A stretch of 64,000 bases of DNA from Egicoccus sp. AB-alg6-2 (lineage in GTDB: Bacteria > Actinomycetota > Nitriliruptoria > Nitriliruptorales > Nitriliruptoraceae). Positions 16,525-55,224 of this stretch are shown in pieces. A program made the translations under genes and the position numbers. Numbering within the stretch: position 1 is the first letter of the stretch; each line of letters begins with the position of its first letter. Below the pieces are notes generated by a model that did no database searches, was not told the DNA's origin, and saw only the letters and a program-made list of their open reading frames with translations. The stretch lies in NCBI RefSeq assembly GCF_041821025.1, contig NZ_JBGUAY010000006.1:248001-312000 (forward strand), given 5' to 3'.

Positions 16525-17991
16525 TCAGTTGGCCGCGAGGATCCCGCTGAGCGAGGAGTAGTCCGTCACCAGGCCCGGTAGGACGCCGAGCAGCAGGGTG
16601 CCGGCCATGAGCACCAGCACGACGAGCGACAGCTGGAAGCCGGGCTGCAACACGGGCAGGCCCTCGCGGGCGGTGTCCATCCACATCGTCTTGACGATGC
16701 GCAGGTAGTAGAAGAAGGCGATGACCGAGTTGATGGCCAGGAAGACCATCAGCACGATCCCGAAGACGCTGACCTCGACCAGCGCCGCCTCGATGATCGC
16801 GAACTTCGCCCACAGCCCGACGGTCGGCGGTGCCCCACCGAGGCTGAGCAGGAACACCGTCATCGCCAGCGCCATCAGCGGGCTCTTCTGGCCCAGGCCG
16901 GCGAAGTCGGCGATGGAGCGCAGGCCCGTCCGCCGGTTGACGGCCACCGCGACCCCGAAGGCGCCGATGTTCATCACGGCGTAGGCGACGAGGTAGAACA
17001 CGACCGCCTGGACCGCCGCCTCGTTCACCTCGGTCGCGCCCGAGCGGGCGAGCCCGAACGGGATCAGCATGTAGCCGGCCTGGGCCACCGAGGAGTAGGC
17101 GAGCAGGCGGATCAGGTCGCGCTGCTGCATGGCGACCAGGTTGCCGATCGTCATGGTGAGGATGGCGAGCACGCCCAGCACCGGCGCCCAGACGTCGGCC
17201 AGGGGCTCGAAGGCGATGAACGTGATCGCCATGAGCCCGGCGAACCCGGCGGCCTTGGACGCCACCGCCAGCATCGCGGCGACGGGGATCGGCGCGCCGG
17301 CGTAGGTGTCAGGGGCCCAGAAGTGGAACGGCACCGCCGAGATCTTGAAGGCGAAGCCGACGATGATCAGCATCACCGAGGCGAGCAGCAGCGGTGTGGT
17401 GGTCGCGTCGTCGCCGATCGCGAGCGCGATGCCCTCGAGCGCGGTGGTCCCGGTGAAGCCGTAGACCATCGACATGCCGAACAGCATCAGCGCCACCGAG
17501 AGCACGCCGATGAGGAAGAACTTCAGCGCCGCCTCGGAGGAGTACAGGTCGCGCTTGCGCAGCCCGGCCATCACGAAGGCGGGGATCGACACCGTTTCGA
17601 GGGCGATGAACAGCAGCAGCAGGTCCCGCGACGACGGCATCAGCAGCATGCCGATGAACGAGGTCAGCAGCAGGAAGTAGTACTCGCCCTGGAAGTAGCG
17701 ACCCTCGGCGAAGAAACGCCAGCTGATGCCGAGGATGGCCAGCAGGCTGCCGAGGAACAGCAGCTTGAACACGACCGCGAAGTCGTTGACGACGAACATC
17801 TCGCCGAAGGTGGTGCGGTCCTGGCCCCAGAGCGCGACGGTGAAGCCGATCGCGACGATGGTGCCGAGCGCGGCCACGGGATTGACCAGCTGCTTGGCCT
17901 CGCCGCGGAGGGCGAGGTCGGCCGCCAGCACGATGAGTGCCGTGACCGTCAGCGCGATCTCTGGTGCGATCGCGAAGAAGTCGATGGCCAT
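16525..17991 (-). CDS. nuoN: complex I subunit N, 11-gene cluster
   Basis: Proton-pumping membrane subunit, 488 residues, about 14 helices. The lumenal-half glutamate is in FIALETVSIPAFVMAGLRKR, and the broken-helix lysine region reads AFKISAVPFHFWAPDTYAGA, as in all NuoN. It starts MAIDFFAIAPEI at ATG 17991. It is the last gene of the nuoABCDHIJKLMN set, 64 bases after nuoM. It diverges strongly from the other NuoN in this window (31512-33155), so the two are not a recent duplication. Confidence 0.95.
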   Translation of the reverse strand: MAIDFFAIAPEIALTVTALIVLAADLALRGEAKQLVNPVAALGTIVAIGFTVALWGQDRTTFGEMFVVNDFAVVFKLLFLGSLLAILGISWRFFAEGRYFQGEYYFLLLTSFIGMLLMPSSRDLLLLFIALETVSIPAFVMAGLRKRDLYSSEAALKFFLIGVLSVALMLFGMSMVYGFTGTTALEGIALAIGDDATTTPLLLASVMLIIVGFAFKISAVPFHFWAPDTYAGAPIPVAAMLAVASKAAGFAGLMAITFIAFEPLADVWAPVLGVLAILTMTIGNLVAMQQRDLIRLLAYSSVAQAGYMLIPFGLARSGATEVNEAAVQAVVFYLVAYAVMNIGAFGVAVAVNRRTGLRSIADFAGLGQKSPLMALAMTVFLLSLGGAPPTVGLWAKFAIIEAALVEVSVFGIVLMVFLAINSVIAFFYYLRIVKTMWMDTAREGLPVLQPGFQLSLVVLVLMAGTLLLGVLPGLVTDYSSLSGILAAN

Positions 17992-18055
17992 GGTCTTCGT
18001 TCCCGTCTGGTTCGGTGTTCGGTGCCGGGTCCGGCGTGTCGGTGCTCTGGCGGGT

Positions 18056-19591
18056 CTAGCTCAGCACCCAGCCCATGAGGTTGCTGACGGCGGCGTCCTG
18101 GACGCCGAACAGCAGCCGCGGGAAGATCCCGAGCGCGAGGATGAGCAGGAGCAGCGGCACCCAGGAGACCCACTCGACCGTCATGACGTCCTGCAGGGGC
18201 TCGTCGGCCCACTTCGCCGAGGGGCGGCCGAGGTTGACGCGCTGGAGCAGCCACAGGAAGTAGCCGGCGGTCAGCACGGTGCCGATGGCGGCGAACACCA
18301 CCAGGCCGAGGTAGAGGCCCTGGTAGGTGTCCGCGAGCCCGCCGCCGGGGTTGATCGCGGCCCACATCGCCGCGAACTCGCCCCAGAAGCCGGCCAGGCC
18401 GGGCAGCCCGAGCGAGGCGACCGCCACGTAGGTGAACAGCACGCCGTAGCGCGGGATCTTGGTGAACATCCCGCCGCCGATCTCGGCGATCTCGCGGGTG
18501 TGGTAGCGCTCGTGCAGCGAGCCGGCGAGGAAGAACAGCATGCCGGTGACCACGCCGTGGGCGATGTTGCCGAACAGCGCCGCCTGGATGCCGGCCTCGT
18601 TCATGGCCGCGATGCCCAGCATCACGAACCCCATGTGGCCGACCGAGGAGAATGCGATGAGGCGCTTGACGTCGGTCTGGGCCAGGCAGCACAGCGAGCC
18701 GTAGATGATGCCGATGACCGCGAGCACCCCGATGATCGGCGCGAACCGCATGGCACCGTCGGGCAGGATCGGCAGCGCGATCCGGATGAAGCCGTAGGTA
18801 CCCATCTTCAGCAGCACGCCGGCCAACAGCACGGAGCCGACCGTCGGCGCCTCGGTGTGGGCGTCGGGAAGCCAGGTGTGGAACGGCCACATCGGGACCT
18901 TGATGGCCAGGCCGAGGAAGATGCCCAGGAACGCCCAGGTCTGGAAGGTGGCACCGCCGACGCCACCGGCGGCCGACAGGGCCTGGATGTCCCAGGTCTG
19001 CGCGCCGGCCTGGAAGTAGATCGCCAGGAACGCGACCAGCATGAAGATCGACCCGAACAACGTGTAGAGGAAGAACTTGACGCTGGCGTAGTCACGCCGC
19101 GGGCCACCCCACATGCCGATCATGAAGAACATCGGGACCAGGACCAGTTCCCAGAACACGAAGAACAGGATCAGGTCGAAGGCGACGAACGTGCCGGCCA
19201 TGCCGGTCTGCAGCAGCAGCATCAGGGCGAGGAACGCCTTGGGGCGGCCGGGCGACGGCAGGATCTTGGTGGTGTAGATCGCGCACAGCAGCGGCAGCAG
19301 GTAGGTCAGGAAGAACAGCGGCAGGCTGATGCCGTCCAACGCGATGTGGAAGTTGGCGTTGATCGCCGAGATCCACGCGACGTCGGTCTGGAACTGCAGC
19401 TGCCCGGACGCGCCGAAGTCGAACGCTGCGGTGATCGCGGCCACCACGGCGAAGGCGACAGCGGTGATGCCCACCGCGGCCCATCGGATCTCGCGGTCCA
19501 GCCGGGCGGGCATCAACGCCAGCAGTCCGGCCCCGACGAGGGGCAGGAACAGGGCGATGATCAGGGCCCATCCTGCGGTCTGCGGGTCCAT
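18056..19591 (-). CDS. nuoM: complex I subunit M, 11-gene cluster
   Basis: Antiporter-like membrane subunit, 511 residues. Key elements: FWELVLVPMFFMIGMWGG with the conserved Glu, KVPMWPFHTWLPDAHTEAP with the broken-helix motif, and DVKRLIAFSSVGHMGFVMLG. Start ATG at 19591. It is separated from nuoL by 116 bases that fold into two hairpins, the largest internal gap in this cluster. Confidence 0.95.
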   Translation of the reverse strand: MDPQTAGWALIIALFLPLVGAGLLALMPARLDREIRWAAVGITAVAFAVVAAITAAFDFGASGQLQFQTDVAWISAINANFHIALDGISLPLFFLTYLLPLLCAIYTTKILPSPGRPKAFLALMLLLQTGMAGTFVAFDLILFFVFWELVLVPMFFMIGMWGGPRRDYASVKFFLYTLFGSIFMLVAFLAIYFQAGAQTWDIQALSAAGGVGGATFQTWAFLGIFLGLAIKVPMWPFHTWLPDAHTEAPTVGSVLLAGVLLKMGTYGFIRIALPILPDGAMRFAPIIGVLAVIGIIYGSLCCLAQTDVKRLIAFSSVGHMGFVMLGIAAMNEAGIQAALFGNIAHGVVTGMLFFLAGSLHERYHTREIAEIGGGMFTKIPRYGVLFTYVAVASLGLPGLAGFWGEFAAMWAAINPGGGLADTYQGLYLGLVVFAAIGTVLTAGYFLWLLQRVNLGRPSAKWADEPLQDVMTVEWVSWVPLLLLILALGIFPRLLFGVQDAAVSNLMGWVLS

Positions 19592-19608
19592 CTTCTCGTT
19601 CCCTCCTG

Positions 19609-19654
19609 CTCGCCCCTTCAGGGGCGAGAGCGGCGCCGGCGCGAGCCGGTGCCG
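19609..19654 (-). other. two hairpins between nuoL and nuoM
   Basis: CTCGCCCC-TTCA-GGGGCGAG (19609-19628, perfect) and CGGCGCCGGC-GCGA-GCCGGTGCCG (19631-19654, one wobble/mismatch). They lie just before the nuoM ribosome site inside an otherwise tightly packed operon. Transcript processing or stabilisation is more likely than termination, since no T-run follows. Confidence 0.5.
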
Positions 19655-19707
19655 TCACCGTGTTCTGGTTGTCGCGGCCGCGAGCGGCCCTGGGTCGTCT
19701 GTCACCG

Positions 19708-22119
19708 TCAGCGTGCGGCCGCGAAGGCCAGCACCAGCACGATGGTCCCGGCCACGATCGCGCCGGCGTAGCGCTGCACGTCACCGGACTGCAGTCGCTT
19801 GAGGCGGTCGCTCCACCAGGCGGCACTGAAGGCGGCGCCGTTCACACCACCGTCGATGACGCGCTGGTCGACCACCTGGTAGGTCGAGGTCGCGACCCGC
19901 TTGGTGGCGGTCCCGGCCCCGGCGACGATGCGGTCGATGACCTCGTTGCTGGTGTAGGTGGCCCAGCCGGCGAGGCGGTCGCGCACCGGCACCACGACGT
20001 AGCGGTAACCGAAGGTGTCGAGGCCGTACTTCGCCACCAGCACCCGTGACAGCGCACCCATCTTGAAGGTCGGGTCCTCGTCGGGCTGCCCGCGGCCGTA
20101 GAACCGCCAGGCCAGGGCGACGGCGGCGAGGAAGGCCACCAGTGCCAGTGCCAGGACGTCGAAGTGCCAGCTCGGGGGGCCGTGCAGGATCTCGGGGTGC
20201 GCGCCCTCCTCGGCGGCCAGCACCGTCGGCCCGGCCGCGAGCACGCCGCCACCGCGCAGGCCCGACGCCTCCTCGCCGTGGTCGTCGGTCTCGGCGCCGT
20301 ACCCGCCACCCTCGACGAAGGGATAGGTCGCGTGCTCGAGGATGGGCGTCGCGGTCCAGGTCTCGAAGCTGTTCTCGGCGGTCCACAGCGGCGAACCGAT
20401 CAGCCCGACCGTCAGCGAAAGGACCGCCAGGATCACCAGCGGAACCACCATCTGCAGTCCGGACTCGTGCGGCTCGTGGTGCGCGCCGTGCCCGTGGTCG
20501 TCGGTGTCGTGGGCGTCGTGCGAACCGGCGCCGTGGGCGACGTCGTGCGAGCCGGAACCGTGGGCGACCGCGTGCGAGCCGGAACCGTGCCCGTCGCCGT
20601 GTGCGTCGTCCGGTCCGCCGTCGTGTGCGCCGACGGACGCGAGCTCGGCCGCACGCTCGGCCTGCTCATGACCGGCGGACTCGGGGTCGAGCCCGCCGGC
20701 CTGCGCTGCCTGGTGCCGCACGTCGGGGTCGCCGTGGGTGTCGTGGCCGCCGCGGAACTCGCCACCGAAGATCAGGAAGCAGGCACGCGCCATGTAGAAG
20801 GTGGTCACGAAGGCGGCGGCGAGACCGACCCAGAACACGAGGTCACCGGTGACGTAGCCGTTTCCGGACCAGATCTGGCCCGAGACCAGGATCTCGTCCT
20901 TCGAGAAGAACCCGGCCGTCATCGGGAACCCGGCAAGCGCCAGCGAGCCCACGATGAAGGTCCAGAACGTGTGCGGCATGTACTTCCGCATGCCGCCCAT
21001 GTCGGACATGTTGTTGCTGTGCACGGCGTGGATGAGTGACCCCGAGCCGAGGAACAACAGCGCCTTGAAGAAGCCGTGGGTGAACAGGTGGAAGATGCCG
21101 GCGGTGTAGCCACCGACGCCGAGCGCGGCGACCATGTAGCCGAGCTGGGACACGGTCGAGTACGCCAGCACCTTCTTGATGTCGTCCTGCACGAGGGCGA
21201 CCAGGCCCCCGAAGAACAGCGTGATCACGCCGACCACCGCGACCACCGTCATCACGGTGATCGACTGGGCGAGCACCGGGTACAGGCGGGCCAGCAGGAA
21301 CACGCCGGCGGTGACCATCGTGGCCGCGTGGATGAGGGCGGACACGGGGGTCGGACCCGCCATGGCGTCGGGCAGCCACACGTGCAGCGGCATCTGGCCC
21401 GACTTGGAGATGCAGGCCAGGAAGATCAGCAACATGCCCAGCACGATCGGGCCCGTACCGATCTCGCCGGCTGCGGCCGCTTCGTTGAGCAGCAGGATGT
21501 TGAAGGCGCGGCCGTCCTCGACCAGTGCGAACATCGGGACCGAGAGCACGATGACGCCGACGATGAGCCCCACGTCGCCGAACTTGGTGACGAGGAACGC
21601 CTTGTTGGCCGCGTCCTGGTTCGACTTCTCCTCCCAGTAGAAGCCGATCAGCAGGAACGAGCACACGCCGACCAGTTCCCAGCCGACCAGCGCCTGCACC
21701 GTGTTGTTGGCGATCACCAGGACCAGCATCGAGAACGTGAACAGGCCCAGCATCGCGAAGAAGTACGTGAAGCGCGGCTCGTGGGCCATGTACTCACGCG
21801 AGTAGATGTGCACCAGCAGCGACACGGTCGTGACGAGCACGAACATCATCGACGTCAGCCCGTCGACGAGCATGCCCAGCTCCAGCACGAAGCCGTCCCC
21901 GAGCGGCGCCCACAGCAGGAAGTGTTCGACCGGCTCGATGGTGCCGTTGGTGAAGGTGTGCCAGGCGATGGCGAGCGAGAGGAGCCAGGCGATGCCGATG
22001 AAGGCGATACCGAACTCGCTGCCACGCAGGGGCATGAGCCGACCGAAGGCGGCCGTGAGCACGGCAGCCGCCAGCGGCAGGGCGACGACCACCCACGCGT
22101 AGTCCAGAAGTGCTTCCAC
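19708..22119 (-). CDS. nuoL: complex I subunit L with His-rich insertion
   Basis: Distal antiporter subunit plus lateral helix, 803 residues; NuoL is usually 610-650. VGWELVGVCSFLLIGFYWEE carries the channel Glu, MPLHVWLPDAMAGPTPVSAL the broken-helix motif, and DIKKVLAYSTVSQLGYMVAA follows. Residues ~455-553 are an insertion rich in His, Asp, Gly and Ser, with 14 His between 499 and 551 and repeats such as AHGSGSHD. It replaces the short loop before HESGLQMVVPLVIL. A second hydrophilic insertion lies at about 603-648. The lateral helix and final anchor at the C-terminus are intact. Confidence 0.94.
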   Translation of the reverse strand: MEALLDYAWVVVALPLAAAVLTAAFGRLMPLRGSEFGIAFIGIAWLLSLAIAWHTFTNGTIEPVEHFLLWAPLGDGFVLELGMLVDGLTSMMFVLVTTVSLLVHIYSREYMAHEPRFTYFFAMLGLFTFSMLVLVIANNTVQALVGWELVGVCSFLLIGFYWEEKSNQDAANKAFLVTKFGDVGLIVGVIVLSVPMFALVEDGRAFNILLLNEAAAAGEIGTGPIVLGMLLIFLACISKSGQMPLHVWLPDAMAGPTPVSALIHAATMVTAGVFLLARLYPVLAQSITVMTVVAVVGVITLFFGGLVALVQDDIKKVLAYSTVSQLGYMVAALGVGGYTAGIFHLFTHGFFKALLFLGSGSLIHAVHSNNMSDMGGMRKYMPHTFWTFIVGSLALAGFPMTAGFFSKDEILVSGQIWSGNGYVTGDLVFWVGLAAAFVTTFYMARACFLIFGGEFRGGHDTHGDPDVRHQAAQAGGLDPESAGHEQAERAAELASVGAHDGGPDDAHGDGHGSGSHAVAHGSGSHDVAHGAGSHDAHDTDDHGHGAHHEPHESGLQMVVPLVILAVLSLTVGLIGSPLWTAENSFETWTATPILEHATYPFVEGGGYGAETDDHGEEASGLRGGGVLAAGPTVLAAEEGAHPEILHGPPSWHFDVLALALVAFLAAVALAWRFYGRGQPDEDPTFKMGALSRVLVAKYGLDTFGYRYVVVPVRDRLAGWATYTSNEVIDRIVAGAGTATKRVATSTYQVVDQRVIDGGVNGAAFSAAWWSDRLKRLQSGDVQRYAGAIVAGTIVLVLAFAAAR
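20461..20757 (-). repeat. His/Gly/Asp-rich repetitive insertion in nuoL
   Basis: The segment encoding NuoL residues ~455-553. Degenerate in-frame repeats of the type GTGGGCGACGTCGTGCGAGCC (plus strand, about 20535-20590) give the AHGSGSH-like series. It adds a charged loop where other NuoL proteins have about ten residues. Confidence 0.75.
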
Positions 22120-22132
22120 GAAGATTCGCTCC

Positions 22133-22450
22133 CTACCAGCGCATCAGGTCGACGTCGTCGACGTTCACCGACGCACGGTTGCGGAACATGTTGAAGATGA
22201 TGGCGAGCCCGACGCCGACCTCGGCGGCCGCGACGGCGATGATGAACAGGGCGAACATCTGGCCGCTGACCGCCGCGTCCTCGCTGAGGGGCCACAGCAG
22301 GTTCTGGAACGCGACCAGGTTGATGTTGACCGCGTTGAGCATCAACTCGACGCTCATCAGCACCAGCACGGCGTTACGGCGGGCGATGATGCCGTAGACG
22401 CCGACGCAGAACAGCAACGTCGCGAGCAGCAGTGGGCCGAGAGGACTCAT
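22133..22450 (-). CDS. nuoK: complex I subunit K, 11-gene cluster
   Basis: Three-helix subunit of 105 residues. Both conserved membrane glutamates are present: [10 protein letters not shown] in helix 2 and AVAAAEVGVGLAI in helix 3. Its start overlaps the nuoJ stop by 4 bases; nuoL follows after 13 bases. Confidence 0.96.
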   Translation of the reverse strand: MSPLGPLLLATLLFCVGVYGIIARRNAVLVLMSVELMLNAVNINLVAFQNLLWPLSEDAAVSGQMFALFIIAVAAAEVGVGLAIIFNMFRNRASVNVDDVDLMRW

Positions 22451-23085
22451 CGCGGCTCGCCTCCCCGCGTGCCGGTGCCCGCCTCGGCGGTGCCAGCCTC
22501 GAGCTCGCCCGGGGGGGTGCTCGCGCGGCCCTGCTCGGTCGACGGCGCGTCCCCGAAGTCGATGATCGCCTGGTCGAGGGTCTCGCCGGAGTCGCCGGCC
22601 TCGCGGCGGGCCAGCAGGATCGCACCGATCAGTGCCGCCAGCAGCAGCATCGACAGCGCCTCGAAGGGCAGGACCCAGTGCGAGAAGATCACCGTGCCGA
22701 TGGCCTCGGTGGGCACGCGCTCGGGCGTCGCGCCGGTCTGGCCGCCGTAGGCCAGAACGATCAGCGTGGACAGCGTGACGAACAACCCGCCGGCCACGGC
22801 GATGCCGAGGCCACGGTTCTGGCTGTCCAGTGCCTCGCGACCGATCGGTGCGCGCGTGAGCATGAGACCGAACAGGAACAGCACGGTCACGGCGCCGACG
22901 TAGACGATCAGCTGCACCAGGGCGAGGAAGTCGGCGTGCAGCACCAGGAAGACCCCGGCGATGCCGGCCAGCGTCACCGCCAGGTGCAGGGCGGCGTGGA
23001 CCAGGTTCTTGGAGGTGACGGTCAGGATCGACGCACCTGCGGTCACCAGTCCGACGAGGACGAAGACGACGTCATGTCCCGTCAT
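22447..23085 (-). CDS. nuoJ: complex I subunit J, 11-gene cluster
   Basis: 212 residues, five helices, with the pi-bulge helix [22 protein letters not shown] at 23085 ([14 protein letters not shown]) has GGAG upstream and overlaps the nuoI stop by 4 bases; the in-frame extension above it is inside nuoI. The last ~50 residues, after LLARREAGD, are polar and Gly/Glu-rich. Confidence 0.95.
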
Positions 23086-24392
23086 GCATCGTCTCCTGCA
23101 TCGAGCTGCTCCTGCTTCTTCTTCTTGACCCACGCGGCCTTCGCCTTGGAGCGCGCGATCCGCTCCGACTTTCCCTCGGCGATCAGCGCGTCGTAGGTCT
23201 CCTGGTCGATCTCGCCAGCACCCTCGACGTGGATGTCACCGAGCTTCTTCTGCGGCGCAGCCGGCTCAGCCGCTTCGGCTGGGTCGGCCGTCTCGACCGG
23301 GGCCGGCTGGGGCGCCTCGGCCGCGGGGCCGGCGGCGTCCTCGGGTTCGCCGGTGCGATCGACGGGCTCGGCGGGAGGGGTGTCGACCTGCGAGGCGTCG
23401 CCGCCGGAGGCCGCCTCCTCGCGCAGGCGTGCCTTCTCCTTCTTGACCCAGGCCGCCTTGGCCTTCGCCCGGGCCATGCGCTCGGGCTTGCCCTCGGCGA
23501 TCAGCGCGTCGTAGGTCTCCTGGTCGATCTGTCCCGCCTCGACGTGGACCTCGGCGGGCTTGGGCGCGGCGGCCGGGGCCTCGGCGGTGCCGGCCGCCGC
23601 GGTCTCGGCCTCGGCGTCGGCGGCCGGCGCCGCGGCCTGCTCCTCGCGAAGCTTCGCCTTCTGCTTCTTGACGTAGGCGGCCTTGGCCTTCGACCGCGCG
23701 ATCCGCTCGGACTTGCCCTCGGCGATCAGCGCGTCGTAGGTCTCCTGGTCGATCTCGCCGGCCTCGACCTTGGGCTCGTCCGCGCGCGCCTTGCCCGCCG
23801 CCGGAGCCGTCGCGGCCTTCGCCTGCTCCGCCTGCTGGGCGGCCTGCTCGGCCTGCTGCGCCGCCTGCTCGAGTTCCTTCTCGGCCTTGGCGATCGCGTC
23901 GGAGACCTCGGCCGGGATCACGGCGCCCGCATCGAGGGCGGGCGGCGGCGGGACCGTGTCCATCCACTCGCGCAGCTTGCCCTTCTCGTGCAGCAGCCGG
24001 TCCATCTGATACTCGGCGTACTCGAACTCCGGCGACCAGAACAGCGCGTCGAACGGGCACACCTCGACACAGATGCCGCAGTACATGCAGAGCGCGAAGT
24101 CGATCGCGAAGCGGTCCAGCACGTTGCGGGTGCGGGCGCGTCCGCCCTCCTTGGCCGGCGGCACCGTCTCCTTGTGGGAGTCGATGTAGATGCACCAGTC
24201 CGGGCACTCGCGGCTGCACAGCATGCAGACGGTGCAGTTCTCGTCCATGAGGGCGATCACGCCGCGGGTGCGCGGCGGCAGGTCCGGCCGCTCGTGCGGG
24301 TACAGCTGTGTCGCCGGCGTCTTGAACAGGTGCTTCAGCGTGACGCCGAGGCCCTTGAGCAGGCCGACGCCCGGGAGCGAGGTCGTTGCCAT
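23082..24392 (-). CDS. nuoI: complex I subunit I with triplicated C-terminal module
   Basis: Two-cluster ferredoxin subunit that carries electrons to NuoB. Cluster ligands: Cys53, 56, 59, 63 ([11 protein letters not shown]) and Cys102, 105, 108, 112 ([11 protein letters not shown]); an extra Cys67 follows the first motif. The conserved core ends near residue 145, yet the protein has 436 residues; typical NuoI has 160-210. The extension has a coiled-coil-like stretch (about 163-192, repeated EQAAQQA), then three near-identical modules at about 209-251, 284-326 and 389-429. Each contains [19 protein letters not shown] or a close variant followed by a Lys/Ala-rich helix. Acidic Ala/Pro linkers separate them. 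I do not recognise the module. Confidence 0.94.
23106..23768 (-). repeat. three NuoI C-terminal modules
   Basis: DNA copies lie at about 23640-23768, 23415-23543 and 23106-23228. The first and third are almost identical at base level over roughly 65 bases. Spacing between modules differs (about 75 and 105 residues) because the linkers vary, which argues for module duplication plus linker drift rather than one simple tandem array. Confidence 0.85.
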
Positions 24393-25499
24393 CTAGAACA
24401 CCACCTTGGCGACTGCGACCACCGCGAGGTTGAGCAGCGACAGCGGGACGAGCACGAGCCACGACATCCGCTGCAGCTGGTCCTCGCGCAGACGCGGGTA
24501 GGCGACGCGCAGCCACACCATCACGAAGGTCAGCAGCAGGATCTTGCCCATGGTCACGCCCAGGCCGATCACGGTCCCGAGCGCGCCGCAGTCGAACAAC
24601 CCGCCGGCGCCCTCGCAGCCCGGCAACGGAACCCCGGGCAGGATCTGCCAGCCACCGAGGTAGAGCACCACCATCAGCGCCGACATCGACACCATGCCCG
24701 CGTACTCGGTGAGCAGGTACATCGCGAACTTGATGCCCGTGTACTCGGTCATGTAGCCGAACACGAGCTCGGAGTCGGCGATGGGCATGTCGAACGGCGG
24801 ACGCGAGAGTTCCGCGAGCGCCGCGACGAAGAAGATGCCGAACCCGAGGATCTGCGGGAACACGAACCACAGGTTGAGGTCGGTGCCCGCCAGCGTGAAC
24901 GTGGCCTGCGACTCGACGATCCCGACCAGCGACAGCGTCCCGGCCTGCACGGCGACGGCGATCGCGGCGAGGATCAGCGGCAGCTCGTAGGCGATCAGCT
25001 GGGCGGCGGCGCGCAGGCCACCGATCAGCGAGAACTTGTTCGCGCTCGCCCAGCCACCCATCATCACGCCGAGCACGGAGATGGAGGTGATGGCCAGCGC
25101 GTAGAAGAGCCCGAGCTCGAGGTCGGCGGCCCACAGTCCCGGCGCCAGCGGCAGCACGAAGAAGATGAGCATCGCCGGCACGAGCGCCATGCCCGGCGCA
25201 ATGGCGAAGACCCACTTGTCCGCGGCCCGCGGGATCAGGTCCTCCTTCTGGAGGAACTTGATGCCGTCGGCGACCAGCTGCAACGAGCCGGCCGGACCGG
25301 CGAACATCGGGCCGCGTCGGTGCTGGAGCCGGGCCATGGCCTTGTGCTCCATGTAGCCGACGACGAGCGGCACGACGAAGAACAGGCCGAGGACGAGCGC
25401 GACCTTGAGCGCGACCGACAGCGCGAACGTGTCGGTGTCGAGCAGGCCGGCGGTCTGCGCCACCAGCCCCGTCGACGTCACCAGGAGCGAATCCATCAT
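24393..25499 (-). CDS. nuoH: complex I subunit H, 11-gene cluster
   Basis: Quinone-chamber membrane subunit, 368 residues. Loop 1 reads MEHKAMARLQHRRGPMFAGP, against [20 protein letters not shown] in the other NuoH here. The loop with acidic residues reads ELSRPPFDMPIADSELVFGY and then MTEYTGIKFAMYLLTEY. ATG at 25499 overlaps the nuoD stop as ATGA. Nothing suggests damage. Confidence 0.95.
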   Translation of the reverse strand: MMDSLLVTSTGLVAQTAGLLDTDTFALSVALKVALVLGLFFVVPLVVGYMEHKAMARLQHRRGPMFAGPAGSLQLVADGIKFLQKEDLIPRAADKWVFAIAPGMALVPAMLIFFVLPLAPGLWAADLELGLFYALAITSISVLGVMMGGWASANKFSLIGGLRAAAQLIAYELPLILAAIAVAVQAGTLSLVGIVESQATFTLAGTDLNLWFVFPQILGFGIFFVAALAELSRPPFDMPIADSELVFGYMTEYTGIKFAMYLLTEYAGMVSMSALMVVLYLGGWQILPGVPLPGCEGAGGLFDCGALGTVIGLGVTMGKILLLTFVMVWLRVAYPRLREDQLQRMSWLVLVPLSLLNLAVVAVAKVVF

Positions 25500-26683
25500 C
25501 GGTCGACGTCCCCCACCACGAAGAAGACGGACCCGAGGACGGAGATGGCGTCGGGCACCAGCGTCCCTTCCAGCAGATACGGCAGCGCCTGGACGTTGGA
25601 GAACGACGCCGTGCGCATCTTCAGCCGCCACGGGGTGCGGCCGCCGTCGGACTCGAGCCAGTACCCCAGCGAGCCGAGCGGGTTCTCGACGCGCACGTAG
25701 GTCGCGCCTTCGGGCGCCTTGACCATCTTCGGCAGCTTGACGTTGACGGGCCCGCCGGGGATGAGGTCGTGGATCTGCTCGATGATGTACAGCGACGCCT
25801 TCATGCGCCCGAGCAGGCAGTAGAACCGGTCCCAGCTGTCGCCGTTCTCACCGACGGGGACGGGCACCTCGACCTGGTCGTACTTGAGGTAGGGCTCGGA
25901 GACGCGGACGTCCTCGGGGATGCCGGTGGCCTGCAGCGTCGGGCCGGACACGCCGTACGACAGCGCGACCTCGGTCGGCAGCGGTCCCACGCCCTTGGTG
26001 CGCGCGATGAAGATCTCGTTGCCGAGCAGCAGGTCCTCGAGGTCCTGGACGCGCTGGTGCATCGAGGCGACGAGGTCGACCGACTGGTGCAGGAAGCCCT
26101 TCGGCAGGTCGATCTTGACCCCGCCGGGCTGGTTGTAGGTGTAGTGGAGGCGGCCACCGGTCGCGGACTCGAGCAGGTACTGGATCCGCTCACGCTCGCG
26201 GGTGGCGTAGAACATCGGCGTGATGGCGCCGAGTTCCAGGCCGTAGGAGCCCACGAACAGCAGGTGGTTGAGGATGCGGTTCCACTCGGCGCCGAGCATC
26301 CGGATCCACTGCGCGCGTTCGGGCACCTCCATCTCGAGCATGCGCTCGACCGTCAGCGCCAGGCCGATCTCGTTGGTCATGCCCGACAGCCAGTCGTGGC
26401 GGTTGACCAGGGCCATGTTCTGGCGGAAGTCACGGTGCTCGGCCAGCTTCTCGAAGCCGCGGTGCATGTAGCCGATGACGGGGTGGGCGGACTTGACCCG
26501 CTCGCCGTCCATCTCGAGCACGACGCGCAGCACCCCGTGCGTGGCCGGATGTGCGGGACCGACGGACAGGGTCATGTCGGCGGTGGTGAACGCACCGTCA
26601 CCGACGATCTCGAGGTTGAGGTTCTCGCCGGGGGCGGTCGCGGGATGGTGGATCTGCCGCGCGCTGAGGTCGCTGACGCTCAT
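25496..26683 (-). CDS. nuoD: complex I subunit D with Tyr-to-Trp at quinone site
   Basis: 49-kDa subunit forming the quinone pocket with NuoB, 395 residues. The beta-hairpin motif GPAHPATHGVLRVV keeps its His. In the helix that normally carries the quinone-hydrogen-bonding Tyr (Thermus Nqo4 Tyr87, context DYxx), this protein reads NRHDWLSGMTNE, with Trp98 encoded by TGG at 26392-26390. The other NuoD in this window has the normal [11 protein letters not shown]. The rest is well conserved, e.g. TYNQPGGVKIDLPKGF. It overlaps nuoC and nuoH by 4 bases each. Confidence 0.94.
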   Translation of the reverse strand: MSVSDLSARQIHHPATAPGENLNLEIVGDGAFTTADMTLSVGPAHPATHGVLRVVLEMDGERVKSAHPVIGYMHRGFEKLAEHRDFRQNMALVNRHDWLSGMTNEIGLALTVERMLEMEVPERAQWIRMLGAEWNRILNHLLFVGSYGLELGAITPMFYATRERERIQYLLESATGGRLHYTYNQPGGVKIDLPKGFLHQSVDLVASMHQRVQDLEDLLLGNEIFIARTKGVGPLPTEVALSYGVSGPTLQATGIPEDVRVSEPYLKYDQVEVPVPVGENGDSWDRFYCLLGRMKASLYIIEQIHDLIPGGPVNVKLPKMVKAPEGATYVRVENPLGSLGYWLESDGGRTPWRLKMRTASFSNVQALPYLLEGTLVPDAISVLGSVFFVVGDVDR

Positions 26684-27993
26684 GACCGCTCCTCCCCGTC
26701 CGAGTCGGGCGTGTCGCCGCCCTCGCGTTCGTCGAGGTCGTCGCTCTGGCCGGCCGTGCCCTGGTAGGGCGCGTCGTCGTCCGCGCGTTCGTCGACGTGC
26801 TCGCCGCCGGGCATCTCGTCCCCCGGTGCCACGGGGGTGCCGGGGCTGCCCGCCGCCGTCGCCGGCGCGTTCGAGGTCTCGGTCGGATCGGTCGGGTCGC
26901 CCTCGGCCCCGGCCGGCTCGCCCGGGGTCGACTCGTCCCCCGGCGCCGTCGGCTCGTCGGCGTCGCGGTCGGCCGGCGCCTCGGCGCCGACCGGCGGCGC
27001 ACCGGGGCCGTCGGACTCGTTGCCCCAGCCGCCCTCGCCGGTGGCCTCGGCGGTCGCTTCCTCGGGGAACTGGTCCTCGCCGGGCTCCACCGCTCCGCCG
27101 GCGGACGCCGCCAGCTCGGCGTCGTCGCCGGCGGCACGCTCGGCCGCCTTGCGGGCGCGGGCCTCGGCGGCCGCCTTGCGCTTCTCCTCGGCCTTCTCGC
27201 GGGCCTCGGACTTGACGTCCTCGTGCTGTTCCTGGGCGTGCTCGACGTCGCCGGCCAGCACCGCGCCGCTGTCGGGTGCCTGTTCGGCCCCGGTGCCGAG
27301 CGCGTCCTCGATCTCCTCGCCCTCGCGGGTGGCGGGGTCGAGCGCGGCCTGCGGGTTGGCGAGCTTGGCCTGTTCGGCCATCGCCTTGTCGAGCTCGTAG
27401 GGACCGGGGGCGTCGCCGAGCTGGGGCACCCGCTCGAGGACGTTGCCGTCCTCGTCGAGCTCGGCCGGTTCCTTGACCCCCGGCCACGGCTTGGCGACGC
27501 GGGTGGCCAGCGGGAAGTCCTTGCGCAGCGGCCAGCCCTCGAAGGTCTCGATGGTGAAGATGCGCGGCTCGAGCGCCGGGTGGTCGGGGAACTCGATGCC
27601 GAACATGTCCCACGCCTCGCGCTCGTGCCAGTTGGCACCGCGGTAGACGTCGGTCAGCGAGGGACAGGTGGGGGCTTCGCGGCCACCGGGGCACCGGGTG
27701 CGCAGGGCGACCCGGTTCCCGGTGGAGGTCGAGTACAGGATCGCGACGACGTCGAAACCCTCGTCGCGGGCGTCGACGCCGAACAGGCAGTCGAAGAAGT
27801 CGTAGGCCAGGACGCGCTCGTCGCGGCAGGCACGGGCGACCGCGGCGAAGTGCTCGTTGTCGACGTGGAGGGTGAACGTGCCGTACTCGACGGTGCTGCC
27901 GAGCACGGCGGCATCGCCCACCTTGGCCCGGATGAGCTCGGCGGTCTCCTCTGGGGAGAGCGCCTGGTCTCTGCGCGCGAGGACGTCCGACAC
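26680..27993 (-). CDS. nuoC: complex I subunit C with long charged tail
   Basis: 30-kDa peripheral-arm subunit, 437 residues; the usual length is about 160-240. The family core ends near residue 172 and includes YRGANWHEREAWDMFGIEF and FEGWPLRKDFPLA. The remaining ~260 residues have no recognisable fold. They comprise an Asp/Glu-rich stretch, a Lys/Glu/Ala helix at about 252-289 (KSEAREKAEEKRKAAAEAR), and a Gly/Pro/Asp/Glu/Thr-rich end. GTG at 27993 with AGGA upstream. Placement beside NuoI suggests the two tails could meet on the peripheral arm. Confidence 0.93.
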   Translation of the reverse strand: MSDVLARRDQALSPEETAELIRAKVGDAAVLGSTVEYGTFTLHVDNEHFAAVARACRDERVLAYDFFDCLFGVDARDEGFDVVAILYSTSTGNRVALRTRCPGGREAPTCPSLTDVYRGANWHEREAWDMFGIEFPDHPALEPRIFTIETFEGWPLRKDFPLATRVAKPWPGVKEPAELDEDGNVLERVPQLGDAPGPYELDKAMAEQAKLANPQAALDPATREGEEIEDALGTGAEQAPDSGAVLAGDVEHAQEQHEDVKSEAREKAEEKRKAAAEARARKAAERAAGDDAELAASAGGAVEPGEDQFPEEATAEATGEGGWGNESDGPGAPPVGAEAPADRDADEPTAPGDESTPGEPAGAEGDPTDPTETSNAPATAAGSPGTPVAPGDEMPGGEHVDERADDDAPYQGTAGQSDDLDEREGGDTPDSDGEERS

Positions 27994-28000
27994 GGTGTTC

Positions 28001-28552
28001 CTAGCCCTCCGCGGTCAGGAGTTCGGGGGCGACGTCCGGTCCGTCGTGCGGGACGACGATCGGATCACGACGGCGCTGCGCCATGCGGTCCTTGAGGCTC
28101 TCGCCCTGGATCCGGTTCTGCAGCGCGACGATGCCGTCGAGCAGGGCCTCGGGCCGCGGCGGGCAGCCGGGCACGTAGACGTCGACGGGCAGGATCTGGT
28201 CGACGCCCTTGGTCACCGAGTAACTGTCCCAGTAGGGCCCGCCGCAGTTGGCGCAGGAGCCGAACGAGATCACGTACTTGGGCTCGGGCATCTCCTCGTA
28301 GAGGCGACGCAGGGCCGGTGCCATCTTGTCGGTCAGCGTGCCCGACACGACCAGCAGGTCGGCCTGTCGGGGCGCGTGGGCGAACGGGATGACGCCGAGA
28401 CGGATGAAGTCGTGGCGGGACCCCGATGCGGCGATGAACTCGATCGCGCAGCAGGCGAGACCGAAGTTGAAGCACCACAGCGAGTACTTGCGGCCCCAGT
28501 TGAAGACGTACTTGATCGGCTTGGGCAGTTCGAACTGGTCGACTACTCCCAC
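28001..28552 (-). CDS. nuoB: complex I subunit B, 11-gene cluster
   Basis: Carries cluster N2, 183 residues. Ligands are Cys34-Cys35 (GLACCAIEF), Cys100 (FGSC) and Cys130 ([10 protein letters not shown]). An extra Cys103 follows in [15 protein letters not shown]; the paralogue here has [17 protein letters not shown] at 28552 overlaps the nuoA stop by 10 bases, so translation is probably coupled. Confidence 0.95.
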
Positions 28553-28926
28553 TTGAGCACCCCCTTCTTCCAGGCGTACATCAGGCCTTCGAGGAGCGTC
28601 CCGATGAACAGGAACATCGCCACGAGGGCGTACAACGCCGAGGGGGTCGTGTTGCCATCGAGGTCACCGATGACCACGGCCCAGGGGAACAAGAAGATCG
28701 CCTCGACGTCGAAGATGACGAACAGGAACGCGAACACGTAGTAGCGGATGTTCATCTGGGACCATCCCGTCCCCACGGCTTCGATCCCACATTCGTAGGT
28801 CGTGAGCTTGAGCGGGGTCGGGACGCTGGGGCGCATCAGCCGGTTGCCCAGCATGATGACGGCATACAGGACGCAGCCCACGATCACCAGGATCGCGAAG
28901 GCCCCGTACTGCTCGGTGAAACTCAC
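28543..28926 (-). CDS. nuoA: complex I subunit A, 11-gene cluster
   Basis: Three-helix subunit, 127 residues. It has the ND3-type loop [11 protein letters not shown] (with Cys) and [21 protein letters not shown] chose GTG at 28926 because AGGAGG lies 6 bases upstream; an ATG at 28953 would add nine residues and has no ribosome site. It is the first gene of the 11-gene cluster and follows a GNAT gene after 116 bases, where an internal promoter could sit, although I see no clear one. Confidence 0.94.
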
Positions 28927-29042
28927 CCCGGTCCTCCTGTCGAGGGTATCCATCGGCTCGCGGGCCGGATCCCGCCACGTGGTGCTCGGACCGGATGGGG
29001 CGCGCGCACCGTGACCCGGCGACGGGTCGCGGGCCCGGGATG

Positions 29043-44776: not shown

Positions 44777-46105
44777 CTAGCGGTCGCACCCGCCCATGAC
44801 GGGGTCGATGCTGGCGACGACGACGATCACGTCGGAGATGCCGTGACCGCGGCTCATGTGGTCGATGGCCTGCAGGCCGACGAACGACGAGTCGCGCAGG
44901 TGGAGCCGGTAGGGCTTGTTGGTGCCGTTGGAGGTGAGCGCGCAGCCCAGTTCGCCGCGCGGCGACTCGGTGGCGACGTAGACCTGGCCCGCCGGCACGG
45001 TGAAGCCCTGGGTCACCAGCTTGAAGTGGTTGATCAGCGACTCCATCGACTCACCCATGATGTGGCGGATGTAGTCGGGGTCGTTGCCGATGCCGTCGGG
45101 CCCGAGGGCCTGTTGCGAGGGCCAGCGGATCTTCTTGTCGGCGACCATGACCTCGCCGCCCGGCAGCGTGTCGAGGGCCTGACGGATGATGCGCAGCGAC
45201 TGGCGCATCTCCTCCATCCGCACGAGGTAGCGCGCGTAGGAGTCGCCGGCGGTCTCGGTCGGGACGTCGAACTCGTACTGCTCGTAGCCCGAGTGCGGCT
45301 GGGCCTTGCGCAGATCGTGCGGGACGCCCGCGGCCCGCAGCAGCGGACCGGTCACGCCGAAGGCGAGCGCGTCCTCGGCGGTGAGGACGCCGATGCCCTG
45401 GGTGCGGTCGACGAAGATCGGGTTGCGCGTGAGCAGGTCCTCGAGGTCGGCGATCTTGCGCGGCAGGTACGCCAGCAGCGACTCGCAGCGTTCGACGAAG
45501 TCCTCGGTGACGTCCTGCGCGAGCCCGCCCGGACGGAAGAAGGCGTGGTTCATGCGCAGGCCGGACTGGGACTCGAACAGGTCGAGGATGTGCTCGCGGG
45601 CCCCGAAGCCGTTGGTCATCACCGTGGTCGCGCCGAGCTCCATGCCGCCCGTCGCGACCCACACGAGGTGGCTCGAGATGCGGTTGAACTCGGACAGGAT
45701 CACGCGGACCGCCTGGGCCCGCTCGGGCACCTCGACGTCGAGCAGCCGCTCGACCCCCATGGCGTAGACCCACTCGTTGAACAGTGGGGCGACGTAGTCC
45801 ATGCGGGTCACGAACGTCGAGCCCTGCACCCAGGTGCGGTACTCGGCGTTCTTCTCGATACCGGTGTGCAGGTAGCCGATGATCGGCGACACCTTGAGCA
45901 CGGTCTCGCCGTCGAGTTCGAGCACCAGGCGCAGTACGCCGTGGGTCGACGGGTGCTGGGGCCCCATGTTGACCGTGAGGGTCTCGTCCTCGATCGCGTC
46001 GACGACGGTCTCCCAGTCGGCGCCCTCGACGAACAGCTCGTTGGCCGGGTCCACGCTTCGCGTCCCGGTGGCCGGGTCGACGGCGGCGTTCTGGTCGAGG
46101 CTCAT
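44777..46105 (-). CDS. nuoD: complex I subunit D, 14-gene cluster
   Basis: 442 residues. Quinone-site residues are standard: [14 protein letters not shown] with His, and [11 protein letters not shown] with Tyr104 at the Nqo4 Tyr87 position. ATG at 46105 overlaps nuoC by 4 bases. Ends [15 protein letters not shown]. It provides the in-window control for the altered NuoD at 25496-26683. Confidence 0.95.
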
Positions 46106-49278: not shown

Positions 49279-50022
49279 TCAGGGCGTGCGGTAGCCGCGG
49301 TGGACGGCGACGATCCCGCCGGCGAGATCCTTCACCTGCACCTGCTCGTAGCCGGCGGACGCGATCCACGTCGCGACCGCACGCCGATCCGGCCACGCCA
49401 GGATGGAGTCCGCCAGGTAGCGGTAGGCGGCCGGCGCCGACGACACCACCTTCGCGGCGGCAGGCAGGGCACCGACGAGGTAGCGGCGGTAGACGGCACG
49501 AAAGGGCGCCCACGTCGGGTTCGCGAACTCGCACACCACCACGCGGCCGCCGGGACGGGTCACGCGCGCGAACTCGCGCAGAGCCAGTTCCGGATCGGGG
49601 ACGTTGCGCAACCCGAACGAGATCGTCACGGCGTCGAACGAGGCGTCGGGAAACGGCAGCGCACGGGCGTCCCCGTTGACCCAGGCGATGCGTTCGTGGC
49701 CGCGCCGCGCGCCCTCGGCCAGCATGTTGAACGACAGGTCGAGGGCGGTCACGCGTGCGGCCCCCCTGGCCACGAGCTCGACCGCCACGTTGCCCGGCCC
49801 CGCCGCGACGTCGAGCACCTCGGCGCCTTCGGGCCCGGCCGCCTGTGCCGTCACCCGCCGCCAGTGTGCGTCCTGGCCCAGCGACAGCGCCGCGTTGGCG
49901 AGGTCGTAGCGGGCCGCGACCTTGTCGAACATCGCCTGCACCAGCGCCGCATCCTTGCCCTCGCGACCGGCCGCCGGCAGCACGTCGGCGTCCGGAACGA
50001 TTGGCGGGGCGGCGTCTGGCAT
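49279..50022 (-). CDS. menG: demethylmenaquinone methyltransferase
   Basis: 247 residues, UbiE/MenG family. FDKVAARYDLANAALSLGQD, the SAM-binding loop EVLDVAAGPGNVAVEL, and ISFGLRNVPDPELALREFAR are diagnostic. It methylates demethylmenaquinone, the last ring step. ATG at 50022 has a poor ribosome site; 5-10 residues of uncertainty remain. It precedes menJ on the same strand. Confidence 0.93.
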   Translation of the reverse strand: MPDAAPPIVPDADVLPAAGREGKDAALVQAMFDKVAARYDLANAALSLGQDAHWRRVTAQAAGPEGAEVLDVAAGPGNVAVELVARGAARVTALDLSFNMLAEGARRGHERIAWVNGDARALPFPDASFDAVTISFGLRNVPDPELALREFARVTRPGGRVVVCEFANPTWAPFRAVYRRYLVGALPAAAKVVSSAPAAYRYLADSILAWPDRRAVATWIASAGYEQVQVKDLAGGIVAVHRGYRTP

Positions 50023-50322
50023 GGTCACGGTCGGCCTTGGGCACGGTGTGGCGCGGGCAGCAGCGGGACGACGTTCGAGGCTACTGCACGTGATCGGGCG
50101 GGTCCCCCGTCTCGGTCGCTGCGGTCCCTCGTTGCCCCCCGGCCCCGCCGGCCGGGTCCCCCGTCTCGGTCGCTGCGCTCCCTCGTTGCCCCCCGGCCCC
50201 GCTGGCCGGGTCCCCCGTCTCGGTCGCGGCAGCTCTTGCGGCGCCTGCTGACCGGGTGTCCGGTCGGCGCGGTGGCGTAGCCTGCCCGCGCAGCGCCCCT
50301 TCTCCGAACGTGAGCGACGCCG
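50023..50322. other. menG / MerR-like divergent intergenic region
   Basis: 300 bp between divergent genes. About half is a 54-bp tandem repeat (50100-50232). The remaining 90 bases before the plus-strand gene should hold its promoter; I see no clear -35/-10 pair. Long open frames across it are repeat artefacts. Confidence 0.55.
50100..50232. repeat. 54-bp tandem repeat, about 2.4 copies
   Basis: Copies begin at 50100, 50154 and 50208 (partial), each starting GGGTCCCCCGTCTCGGTCGC. The two full copies differ at two positions. The unit is GC-rich and includes CGGCCGG-type palindromic sequence. It lies between divergent menG and the menF operon. Confidence 0.85.
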
Positions 50323-50880
50323 ATGGCCTCCGACCGCGACCTCGATGCGCCCGACGCCGCGCTGGCACAGGCCGTCGTACGTCCCCCCGCACCGCCGACT
50401 GCGGACGACGACCTCGAGGCGCCCTACACCCTCGACGACGTCGCGGCCGAGGTCGGTGCCGGCCGTGCGCTGCTGGACGCGGTCGCGCGCACCGGCCTGC
50501 TCCTCCCCCACCACGTCGACGAGGACGGCGAAGCGCGCTACTCGGCCGCCGACCTCGCCGCCGTCCGGGCCGGACTGACCCTGCTGGACGCCGGTCTGCC
50601 GCTGGGTGAACTGCTCGACCTGGCCCGGCGGACCGACGCGGCGGTCGGCGAGGTCGCCACCGCGGCCGTCGACGCGTTCCTGCGTTTCGTCCGCGACCCG
50701 GTGCGCGGCACCTCGGCGAGCGAGACCGAGGCCGCGCAACGCCTGGTCACCGCCTACGAGCAGATGCTGCCGGCCACCGAGCGGCTGGTCGCCCACCACG
50801 TCCGTCGCCGGGTGCTGCAGGAGGCGGCGCAGCGCGTGCCGGGCGCGCTGGCCGGCGACGACACGGACGGCGGGGCATGA
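50323..50880 (+). CDS. MerR-like DNA-binding protein
   Basis: 185 residues. Residues ~35-75, YTLDDVAAEVGAGRALLDAV, then LLLPHHVDEDGEARYSAADL, resemble a MerR winged helix (recognition helix, wing, Arg-Tyr-Ser). A helical region follows, GLTLLDAGLPLGELLDLARR, similar to MerR dimer helices. No effector domain is evident. Stop overlaps menF start (ATGA), so it may regulate menF or the divergent menG. Confidence 0.55.
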   Translation: MASDRDLDAPDAALAQAVVRPPAPPTADDDLEAPYTLDDVAAEVGAGRALLDAVARTGLLLPHHVDEDGEARYSAADLAAVRAGLTLLDAGLPLGELLDLARRTDAAVGEVATAAVDAFLRFVRDPVRGTSASETEAAQRLVTAYEQMLPATERLVAHHVRRRVLQEAAQRVPGALAGDDTDGGA

Positions 50881-53470: not shown

Positions 53471-55224
53471 GCGAAGTCGGCGAGCGCGGCGTCGACCTCG
53501 TGCTGGATGCGGCGGTGGAGCGCCAGGTTCTCGTCGCGATCGGTGCGGACGTGGACGAGGTGGATGCCACCGGCCTCGCGCGCCGCGTCGACCGCGGGCA
53601 TCAGCTCGGCGGCGGTCGAGACGTCCGCGTGCCCGAGGTCGTGGAACCGGGCCAGTTCGGCGAGGTCGCGCCCGTGGGGGGTGCCGAAGACGCGCTCGAA
53701 GGAGGCCTCGAACCGACGTTGGGGCAGGAACGAGAAGATGCCGCCGCCGTCGTTGTCGACGACCACGAGGACCAGGTCGATGCCGGGCGCGTCCGGGGAC
53801 AGCAGGAACCCGTTGGCGTCGTGCAGCAGCGACAGGTCCCCGGTGAGCGCCACCGTCGGGCGGCCGCCGCCGAGGGCGACGCCGAGCGCGGTCGAGACGA
53901 ACCCGTCGATGCCCGACGCACCGCGGTTGGAGATCACGCGCAGGTGGTCACGCGGCGCGAGGAAGGCGTCGAGGTCGCGGGCGGGCATCGAGGAGGCGAC
54001 GACCAGGGTGGCGCCGTCCGGCAGTCCCGCCCCGAGGTCGCGGGCGACGCGCGGCTCGCTCGGCCGGTCGTGTTCGTCGAGGACCGAGCCGACGACCCGA
54101 CGGACGCGCCGGTCGGCCTCGAGCCAGCGGTCGGCCCAGTCGGACCCGGCGGTCACGGCCAGCAACGCGGTCAGCCCGGCCGCCGTCGCCGCGACGTCGG
54201 CGACCAGCAGCTCGGAGACCGCCCGGTCCGGGTCGTGCCAGCCGCCGTGCGGGTCGATCAGCAGCTGGGGGACGTCGGGCCCGAGCAGGGCGGCGACGTT
54301 GCGGGACAGTCCCGTCCGCCCGATGCGCAACACGAGATCCGGACGGTGGGCCCGTGCGAAGGCGGCGTTGCCGAGCAGGTGGTGGGCCGCGCCGACGACC
54401 GGGTCGCCGGTGCGCACGTTGGAGGCCGGCTCGGCGATGACGGGCCAGCCGGCGGCCCGGGCCAGGTCGAGCACGACCGCCACGTTCGCGTCGGTCTGGC
54501 CGACCACGACCAGGCCGCGCTCGGTACCCGCGATGCGGGCCGCGAGCGACCGCAGCTCCGCGGATGGGACGTGGCGCGGGGCCCGGCCGACGATCGTCCA
54601 CGGTCGCCCGCCGGAGCGGCCCGCCAGGGACGCCTCGAAGGGGCCGGCCACCCGCGCGCGACCGTCGTCGGTGAGCGGGACGGTCGGCTCCCGGAAGGCG
54701 AGGTTGAGGTGCACCGGTCCCGGCGGGCCGGACAGGCCCCCCGCCTCGGCGAGCGCCCGGCAGGCCGTCGCGCGCCAGTAGCCGACCGCGCCCGGCCGAT
54801 CCTCGGGAACCCCCACCTCGACGAACCAGCGCACGGACCGTCCGAAGATGCCGAGCTGGTCGATGGCCTGGTTCGCACCGGTGTGACGCAACTCGGGCGG
54901 ACGGTCGGCCGTCAGCAGCAGCAGGGGCACCTGCCCGGTGTCGGCCTCGACGACGGCGGGGTGGAGGTTGGCCACCGCCGACCCGCTGGTGACGACGACA
55001 GGGGCGGGCCGGCCGGTCGCCCGGGCGAGTCCGAGGGCGAGGAAACCGGCCGAGCGCTCGTCGATCTCGACGTGCAGGCGGATCCGCGGGTCCTCGTGCA
55101 GCGCCAGCGCCAAGGCGGTCGAGCGCGATCCGGGCGCCAGCACCGCATCGGTGATCCCGCCGCGGGCGAGTTCGTCGACCAGGACCAGCGCCAGCGCGTG
55201 CGAGGGATTCGCGGCGGACTCCAT
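53467..55224 (-). CDS. menD: SEPHCHC synthase MenD
   Basis: 585 residues, thiamine-diphosphate enzyme joining 2-oxoglutarate to isochorismate. Cofactor-activating Glu in RLHVEIDERSAGFLALGLAR; substrate-binding LAPGSRSTALALAL and VISNRGASGIDGFVSTALG; metal/diphosphate motif LTGDLSLLHDANGF. ATG at 55224, 4 bases after menC. Longer frames upstream lie inside menC. Confidence 0.95.
   Translation of the reverse strand: MESAANPSHALALVLVDELARGGITDAVLAPGSRSTALALALHEDPRIRLHVEIDERSAGFLALGLARATGRPAPVVVTSGSAVANLHPAVVEADTGQVPLLLLTADRPPELRHTGANQAIDQLGIFGRSVRWFVEVGVPEDRPGAVGYWRATACRALAEAGGLSGPPGPVHLNLAFREPTVPLTDDGRARVAGPFEASLAGRSGGRPWTIVGRAPRHVPSAELRSLAARIAGTERGLVVVGQTDANVAVVLDLARAAGWPVIAEPASNVRTGDPVVGAAHHLLGNAAFARAHRPDLVLRIGRTGLSRNVAALLGPDVPQLLIDPHGGWHDPDRAVSELLVADVAATAAGLTALLAVTAGSDWADRWLEADRRVRRVVGSVLDEHDRPSEPRVARDLGAGLPDGATLVVASSMPARDLDAFLAPRDHLRVISNRGASGIDGFVSTALGVALGGGRPTVALTGDLSLLHDANGFLLSPDAPGIDLVLVVVDNDGGGIFSFLPQRRFEASFERVFGTPHGRDLAELARFHDLGHADVSTAAELMPAVDAAREAGGIHLVHVRTDRDENLALHRRIQHEVDAALADFA

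Follow-up and report, generated by a model that had tools for sequence, protein, structure and literature searches.

The quinone-binding tyrosine of complex I, described as strictly conserved and essential in NuoD and its 49-kDa homologs (PMC7434922, PMC8119997, PMC10396290), is replaced by tryptophan in the NuoD subunit of an 11-gene nuo set from Egicoccus sp. AB-alg6-2. The substitution, Trp98, is real and lineage-defining and, as far as the literature searched shows, undescribed; no published report of Trp at this site was found in that literature, which covers few subscription journals. It is part of a wider rebuild in which the canopy residues of NuoD, Met51 and an arginine of NuoB, and Glu223 of NuoH are largely lost. 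Current models have the conserved His and Tyr supply the two protons of the quinone, with the leftover negative charge triggering proton pumping (PMC7434922, PMC8119997, PMC10396290).

The 64,000-nucleotide stretch of DNA analyzed here (the window) encodes a full 14-gene nuo set and an 11-gene set, nuoABCDHIJKLMN, with no nuoEFG nearby. This layout, in which the 11-gene set follows the 14-gene set head to tail (window positions 16525–48000), recurs in several Actinomycetota families, at loci that include L042, L044, L069, L071, L073, L078, L140, and L143. The NuoL of the 11-gene set contains a long His-rich insert (HGDGHGSGSHAVAHGSGSHDVAHG...).

Table 1 Coordinates of the features discussed, in window positions.
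Feature	Position	Strand	Remarks
11-gene set nuoA-B-C-D-H-I-J-K-L-M-N	16525..28953	-	no nuoE/F/G
NuoL of 11-gene set	19708..22119	-	long His-rich insert
NuoI of 11-gene set	23082..24392	-	C-terminal tail with three motif copies
nuoH of 11-gene set	24393..25499	-	
NuoH Ile240	24780..24782	-	replaces Nqo8 Glu223, TM5-6 loop
nuoD of 11-gene set	25499..26683	-	394 residues (P0001), then Arg and stop; NCBIfam NuoD families
NuoD Phe387	25523..25525	-	replaces canopy Asp422 (bovine) / Asp458 (Yarrowia)
NuoD Leu336	25676..25678	-	replaces canopy Lys371 (bovine) / Lys407 (Yarrowia); numbering via mouse alignment
NuoD Arg293	25805..25807	-	position of Yarrowia Glu339, proposed proton path to bulk
NuoD His180	26144..26146	-	bovine His190, redox-Bohr His of N2
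NuoD Glu150	26234..26236	-	Nqo4 Asp139
NuoD Trp98 (TGG)	26390..26392	-	position of Thermus Nqo4 Tyr87 / bovine Tyr108
NuoD Arg75	26459..26461	-	bovine Arg85, near N2
NuoD His49	26537..26539	-	Nqo4 His38 / bovine His59, kept, 127/127
nuoB of 11-gene set	28001..28552	-	Met51 (Thermus) = Ile40; first Arg of canonical FRxSPRQ = Ala58
NuoB Ile40	28433..28435	-	replaces Nqo6 Met51 (quinone-ring contact)
nuoD of full 14-gene set	44777..46105	-	Tyr104, canopy Arg/Asp
ORF with UbiE/MenG methyltransferase domain	49279..50799	-	PF01209
MenD match (classical menaquinone synthesis)	53872..55191	-	TIGR00173, E 2e-133

Codon 98 reads cca on the plus strand, or TGG on the coding strand, in the context NRHDWLSG. 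The encoded protein passes the PRK06075 model (394.9 bits, cut-off 360), as expected of a NuoD/49-kDa homolog, and its AlphaFold2 model (pLDDT 81.7) finds its best PDB match in the NuoD of mycobacterial complex I (8e9h_D; Z 47.5, 357 residues aligned, rmsd 2.0). In a gapless phmmer alignment of Thermus Nqo4 (2fug_4) residues 23–315 with residues 34–326 of the window NuoD, Trp98 coincides with Tyr87, and an alignment with mouse NDUFS2 places it on bovine Tyr108. No alignment gap lies near Trp98 and so no shifted Tyr is found nearby, which rules out both misalignment and a displaced Tyr taking over the site. A sequencing error is likewise ruled out, as NRHDW is present in all 30 of the related class genomes examined first and all 120 distinct clade sequences have Trp. 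The original prediction of this replacement is therefore confirmed, together with its statements that the NuoD of the full set, encoded 18 kb away, has the usual RMDYVAP and that the partner His of the ATHG hairpin is kept (residue 49, in 127 of 127 clade rows).

Matches to the 11-type NuoD were recovered from 44 of 66 genomes of the class (63–100% identity), and one further genome contains a fragment. A search across Actinomycetota covered 396 genomes, 146 of which have a NuoD match at E ≤ 1e-95; representatives taken down this phylum-wide list with their gene neighborhoods, along with 80 loci from named genomes, made up the sample surveyed for Tyr or Trp. All 127 rows of the resulting clade (120 distinct sequences) have Trp, while Tyr occurs in 60 of the 61 other NuoDs compared, the remaining one having a gap here. 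In a tree built without the trait columns, the Trp clade is strongly supported (UFBoot 100, SH-aLRT 99) and a single Tyr/Trp change suffices; the Trp sequences, which share that one origin, do not count as independent replicates. The clade belongs to Actinomycetota, apart from one MAG titled Acidobacteria (L143), whose 11-gene set sits on short branches inside the actinobacterial part of the tree, so that the bin is probably misnamed. Tyr is the residue found in EFG-less clusters of Bacillota, Chloroflexota, Bacteroidota, Ignavibacteriota, Calditrichota, Planctomycetota, and other Actinomycetota lineages; Trp is thus the mark of a lineage rather than of the loss of NuoEFG, although it could also have arisen independently in a distant phylum. 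It is fixed in this one actinobacterial clade (120/120) and is no mark of EFG-less sets in general.

The original prediction missed a larger change in the same protein, the loss of the charged canopy pair. This pair (K371:D422 in bovine, K407/D458 in Yarrowia) is called conserved and required for quinone reductase activity (PMC9474812, PMC10396290). The window NuoD has Leu and Phe instead: Leu occupies the first column in 118 of 127 clade rows and Phe or Tyr the second in 118 of 127, against R/K and D/E, respectively, in nearly all other NuoDs. Among the 120 distinct clade sequences the combinations are L+F (90), L+Y (22), K+D (7), and R+D (1), with no mixed pairs, such that the canopy is lost in 112 and intact in 8. 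The 61 other NuoDs comprise 58 with R/K and D/E, one with L+M, and two with gaps. Canopy state needs two changes on the tree, and monophyly of all canopy-less Trp sequences is weakly rejected (p-AU 0.043); Trp therefore arose no later than canopy loss, which may have happened twice. At the Yarrowia Glu339 column, 94 of 127 clade rows have R or Q, compared with E in 59 of 59 others. Most clade members have Glu at the Asp139 column, but Glu is also usual there in Tyr-type actinobacterial 14-gene sets, which rules out loss of this Asp as a special feature of the clade. One Trp subclade (L069–L076, L078, L140–L143, and L145) has Gln at this partner position of the hairpin His, so that the usual ion pair cannot form there.

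Changes extend to the partner subunits. Thermus NuoB Met51, which touches the quinone ring (PMC7434922), is retained in only 7 of 68 clade NuoB rows vs. 52 of 55 others, and Ala or Pro takes the place of the first Arg in its FRxSPRQ motif in 69 of 69 clade rows. In NuoH, the Nqo8 Glu223 column has I or V in 84 of 86 clade rows and E in 50 of 59 others. Because the phenol is gone from the whole clade and many further changes at the quinone and N2 sites accompany its loss, altered quinone handling, as originally predicted, is very likely.

Together with the gene content, these residues make it fairly probable that the 11-gene set encodes a proton-pumping complex I that lacks the NADH module and passes electrons through a rebuilt pocket from cluster N2 to menaquinone, with ferredoxin as the most likely source. 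Cluster N2 would still reduce menaquinone, while the ring of Trp98 would pack against the menaquinone head or its indole NH would hydrogen-bond to the head. The two protons of the quinol would be delivered by the hairpin His with its Glu/Gln partner, or from the membrane side, and not from Tyr or through the canopy. A related claim, quite possible although a little short of probable, is that an entire lineage of complex I reduces menaquinone and pumps protons without the Tyr and canopy groups through which current models protonate quinone, or else that the site no longer takes part in quinone chemistry at all. If menaquinone is reduced and protons are pumped, neither the Tyr nor the canopy groups would be needed for catalysis or coupling. 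With Tyr replaced by Trp and the two charged neighbors lost in most members, the clade separates the roles of Tyr and canopy and provides a natural test of proton delivery to quinone.

An unlikely alternative, albeit the strongest, is a pocket without quinone reduction, serving another acceptor or belonging to an electron-transfer complex that has its redox exit at a different place. Tyr, both canopy residues (Lys and Asp), Met51 and the Arg of NuoB, and Glu223 of NuoH are all changed, and canopy mutants are impaired in quinone reduction (PMC9474812). However, the features expected of a quinone-reactive complex I persist: the hairpin His, the four Cys ligands of N2 in NuoB, and NuoH E227/E235 are invariant in the clade, the fold matches that of complex I NuoD across the 357 aligned residues, and no Cys occurs among the invariant NuoD alignment columns as a candidate ligand for a new cofactor.

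The surroundings of cluster N2 also differ from those in the 14-gene sets. His at the bovine His190 column and Arg at the bovine Arg85 column are each present in 127 of 127 clade rows, whereas 14-gene sets of the same phylum have Asn (16 of 18 rows) and Thr (16 of 18 rows), as does the 14-gene set of the window genome. Arg85 is not clade-specific, being common to EFG-less NuoDs outside the Trp clade, from which His190 is mostly absent; bovine Arg105 is kept in the clade. Arg85 and His190 have been linked to a higher N2 potential and to its pH dependence (PMC4893023), and N2 of the 11-gene set would have a potential that varies with pH and lies above that of its counterpart in the 14-subunit enzyme. 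In the clade NuoB motif GSCANCGG, an N2 ligand is followed three residues later by an extra Cys (65 of 70 clade rows vs. 7 of 56 others), which could influence or ligate N2. Less probable still than a pocket without quinone reduction is that the complex runs in reverse, with menaquinol and the proton motive force driving ferredoxin reduction and the altered site favoring quinol oxidation. The NADH module is absent, and the N2 signature suggests a potential closer to that of menaquinone; yet a higher N2 potential would help both directions, sequence cannot give the direction, and the clade is spread over Streptomyces and other lineages whose Kor enzymes could supply reduced ferredoxin.

For the favored reading, 2-oxoacid:ferredoxin oxidoreductases such as KorAB would reduce the ferredoxin that supplies the electrons. 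Of the 125 genomes that encode a Trp-type NuoD, 108 have KorA, vs. 92 of the 271 other genomes, as raw counts uncorrected for shared ancestry, with the Trp type assigned by match strength after representatives had been read; 17 of the 125 Trp genomes have no Kor match. KorA is encoded on another contig in the window genome and ends ~4.5 kb from the D-less nuo cluster of genome G087 described below. Ferredoxin has also been proposed as the donor for a different 11-subunit enzyme (PMC11238625). Input from F420H2 was rejected, as FrhB (PF04432, the F420 module) has no match in the window genome at E ≤ 0.001; the window NuoD scores 303.7 bits against the FpoD model, below its cut-off of 600 for F420H2 dehydrogenase (Fpo).

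On the quinone side, a MenD match and an ORF with a UbiE/MenG domain are present, and MqnA of the futalosine route has no match in the window genome, which speaks against that route and indicates menaquinone made by the classical one. Menaquinone alone cannot explain Trp, since the 14-gene set of the same genome is of the Tyr type and Thermus uses menaquinone with Tyr87. The same observations make adaptation to a different quinone species, which had been raised as a possible fit to the Tyr loss, very improbable, even though a change in a headgroup ligand is fixed. Relaxed drift of a redundant paralog, whose role the 14-gene set of the same genome could cover, is hardly credible and already disfavored, given that Trp is invariant within the clade at 44–93% identity, that the two canopy residues are always replaced together, and that Trp-type NuoD is under purifying selection (dN/dS 0.11–0.16 between congeneric genomes).

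The 11-gene set can be placed among known complexes. It has the same subunit set without NuoE/F/G as the D. hafniense-type enzyme, for which ferredoxin is the proposed donor (PMC11238625), but the EFG-less sets read from Bacillota and other phyla have Tyr together with both canopy residues (Lys/Arg and Asp), in contrast to Trp and mostly Leu/Phe in the actinobacterial clade. The canonical 14-subunit complexes of Thermus and the actinobacterial 14-gene sets have the same fold and align without gaps across the quinone site; Thermus differs by its Tyr87, and the actinobacterial 14-gene sets differ in having Tyr and the canopy Arg/Asp and in mostly lacking Arg85 and the redox-Bohr His. Cyanobacterial and plastid NDH-1 is another EFG-less relative of complex I. 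Solved NdhH chains are among the matches of the window NuoD, which nevertheless scores under the curated cut-off of the NdhH model.

Streptomycete-like and other genomes encode a Trp-type NuoD that stands alone, and named Streptomyces loci carry such an unlinked nuoD. These are not orphans without partners, as NuoB loci revealed D-less nuo clusters elsewhere in nine of ten such genomes. The D-less cluster of G087 contains 10 genes, nuoA-B-C-H-I-J-K-L-M-N, with the Trp-type nuoD ~200 kb away. D-less clusters occur in several Actinomycetota lineages (L206, L207, L209, L211, L213, L215, L216, L218, and L221), with unlinked Trp-type nuoD partners at L047–L051, L054, L058–L061, L064, and L068, and it takes three changes on the tree to account for where nuoD is linked and where it is not. 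In S. coelicolor, nuo2 has been listed without NuoC, D, E, F, G, and L, with an unclear function (PMC9239103). The D-less 11-type clusters read here share their NuoB type with the window 11-gene set, and genomes that hold them also hold a Trp-type nuoD; we infer that the unlinked gene is probably the D subunit of Streptomyces nuo2 (SCO4599–SCO4608, genes taken from the description). Apart from the unlinked nuoD, the published account, which lacks NuoC and NuoL, differs from the G087 cluster, which has nuoC- and nuoL-like genes. Trp-type nuoD would thus offer the missing subunit of nuo2, and it would open the clade to study in Streptomyces, as the unlinked nuoD and the 10 genes of nuo2 are separately deletable there.

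The C-terminal tail of the window NuoI, with its three motif copies, gives no Pfam domain match at E ≤ 1e-4, and a single copy of the motif is present in the NuoC tails of some relatives. A similar motif (E 1.6e-9) occurs in a cytochrome b/subunit-IV-like protein encoded 5 kb to the right of the window (L230:6219-7238, minus strand), adjoined by Rieske-like and cytochrome c-like genes. The motif could be a docking link between the 11-gene-set complex and a menaquinol:cytochrome c reductase.
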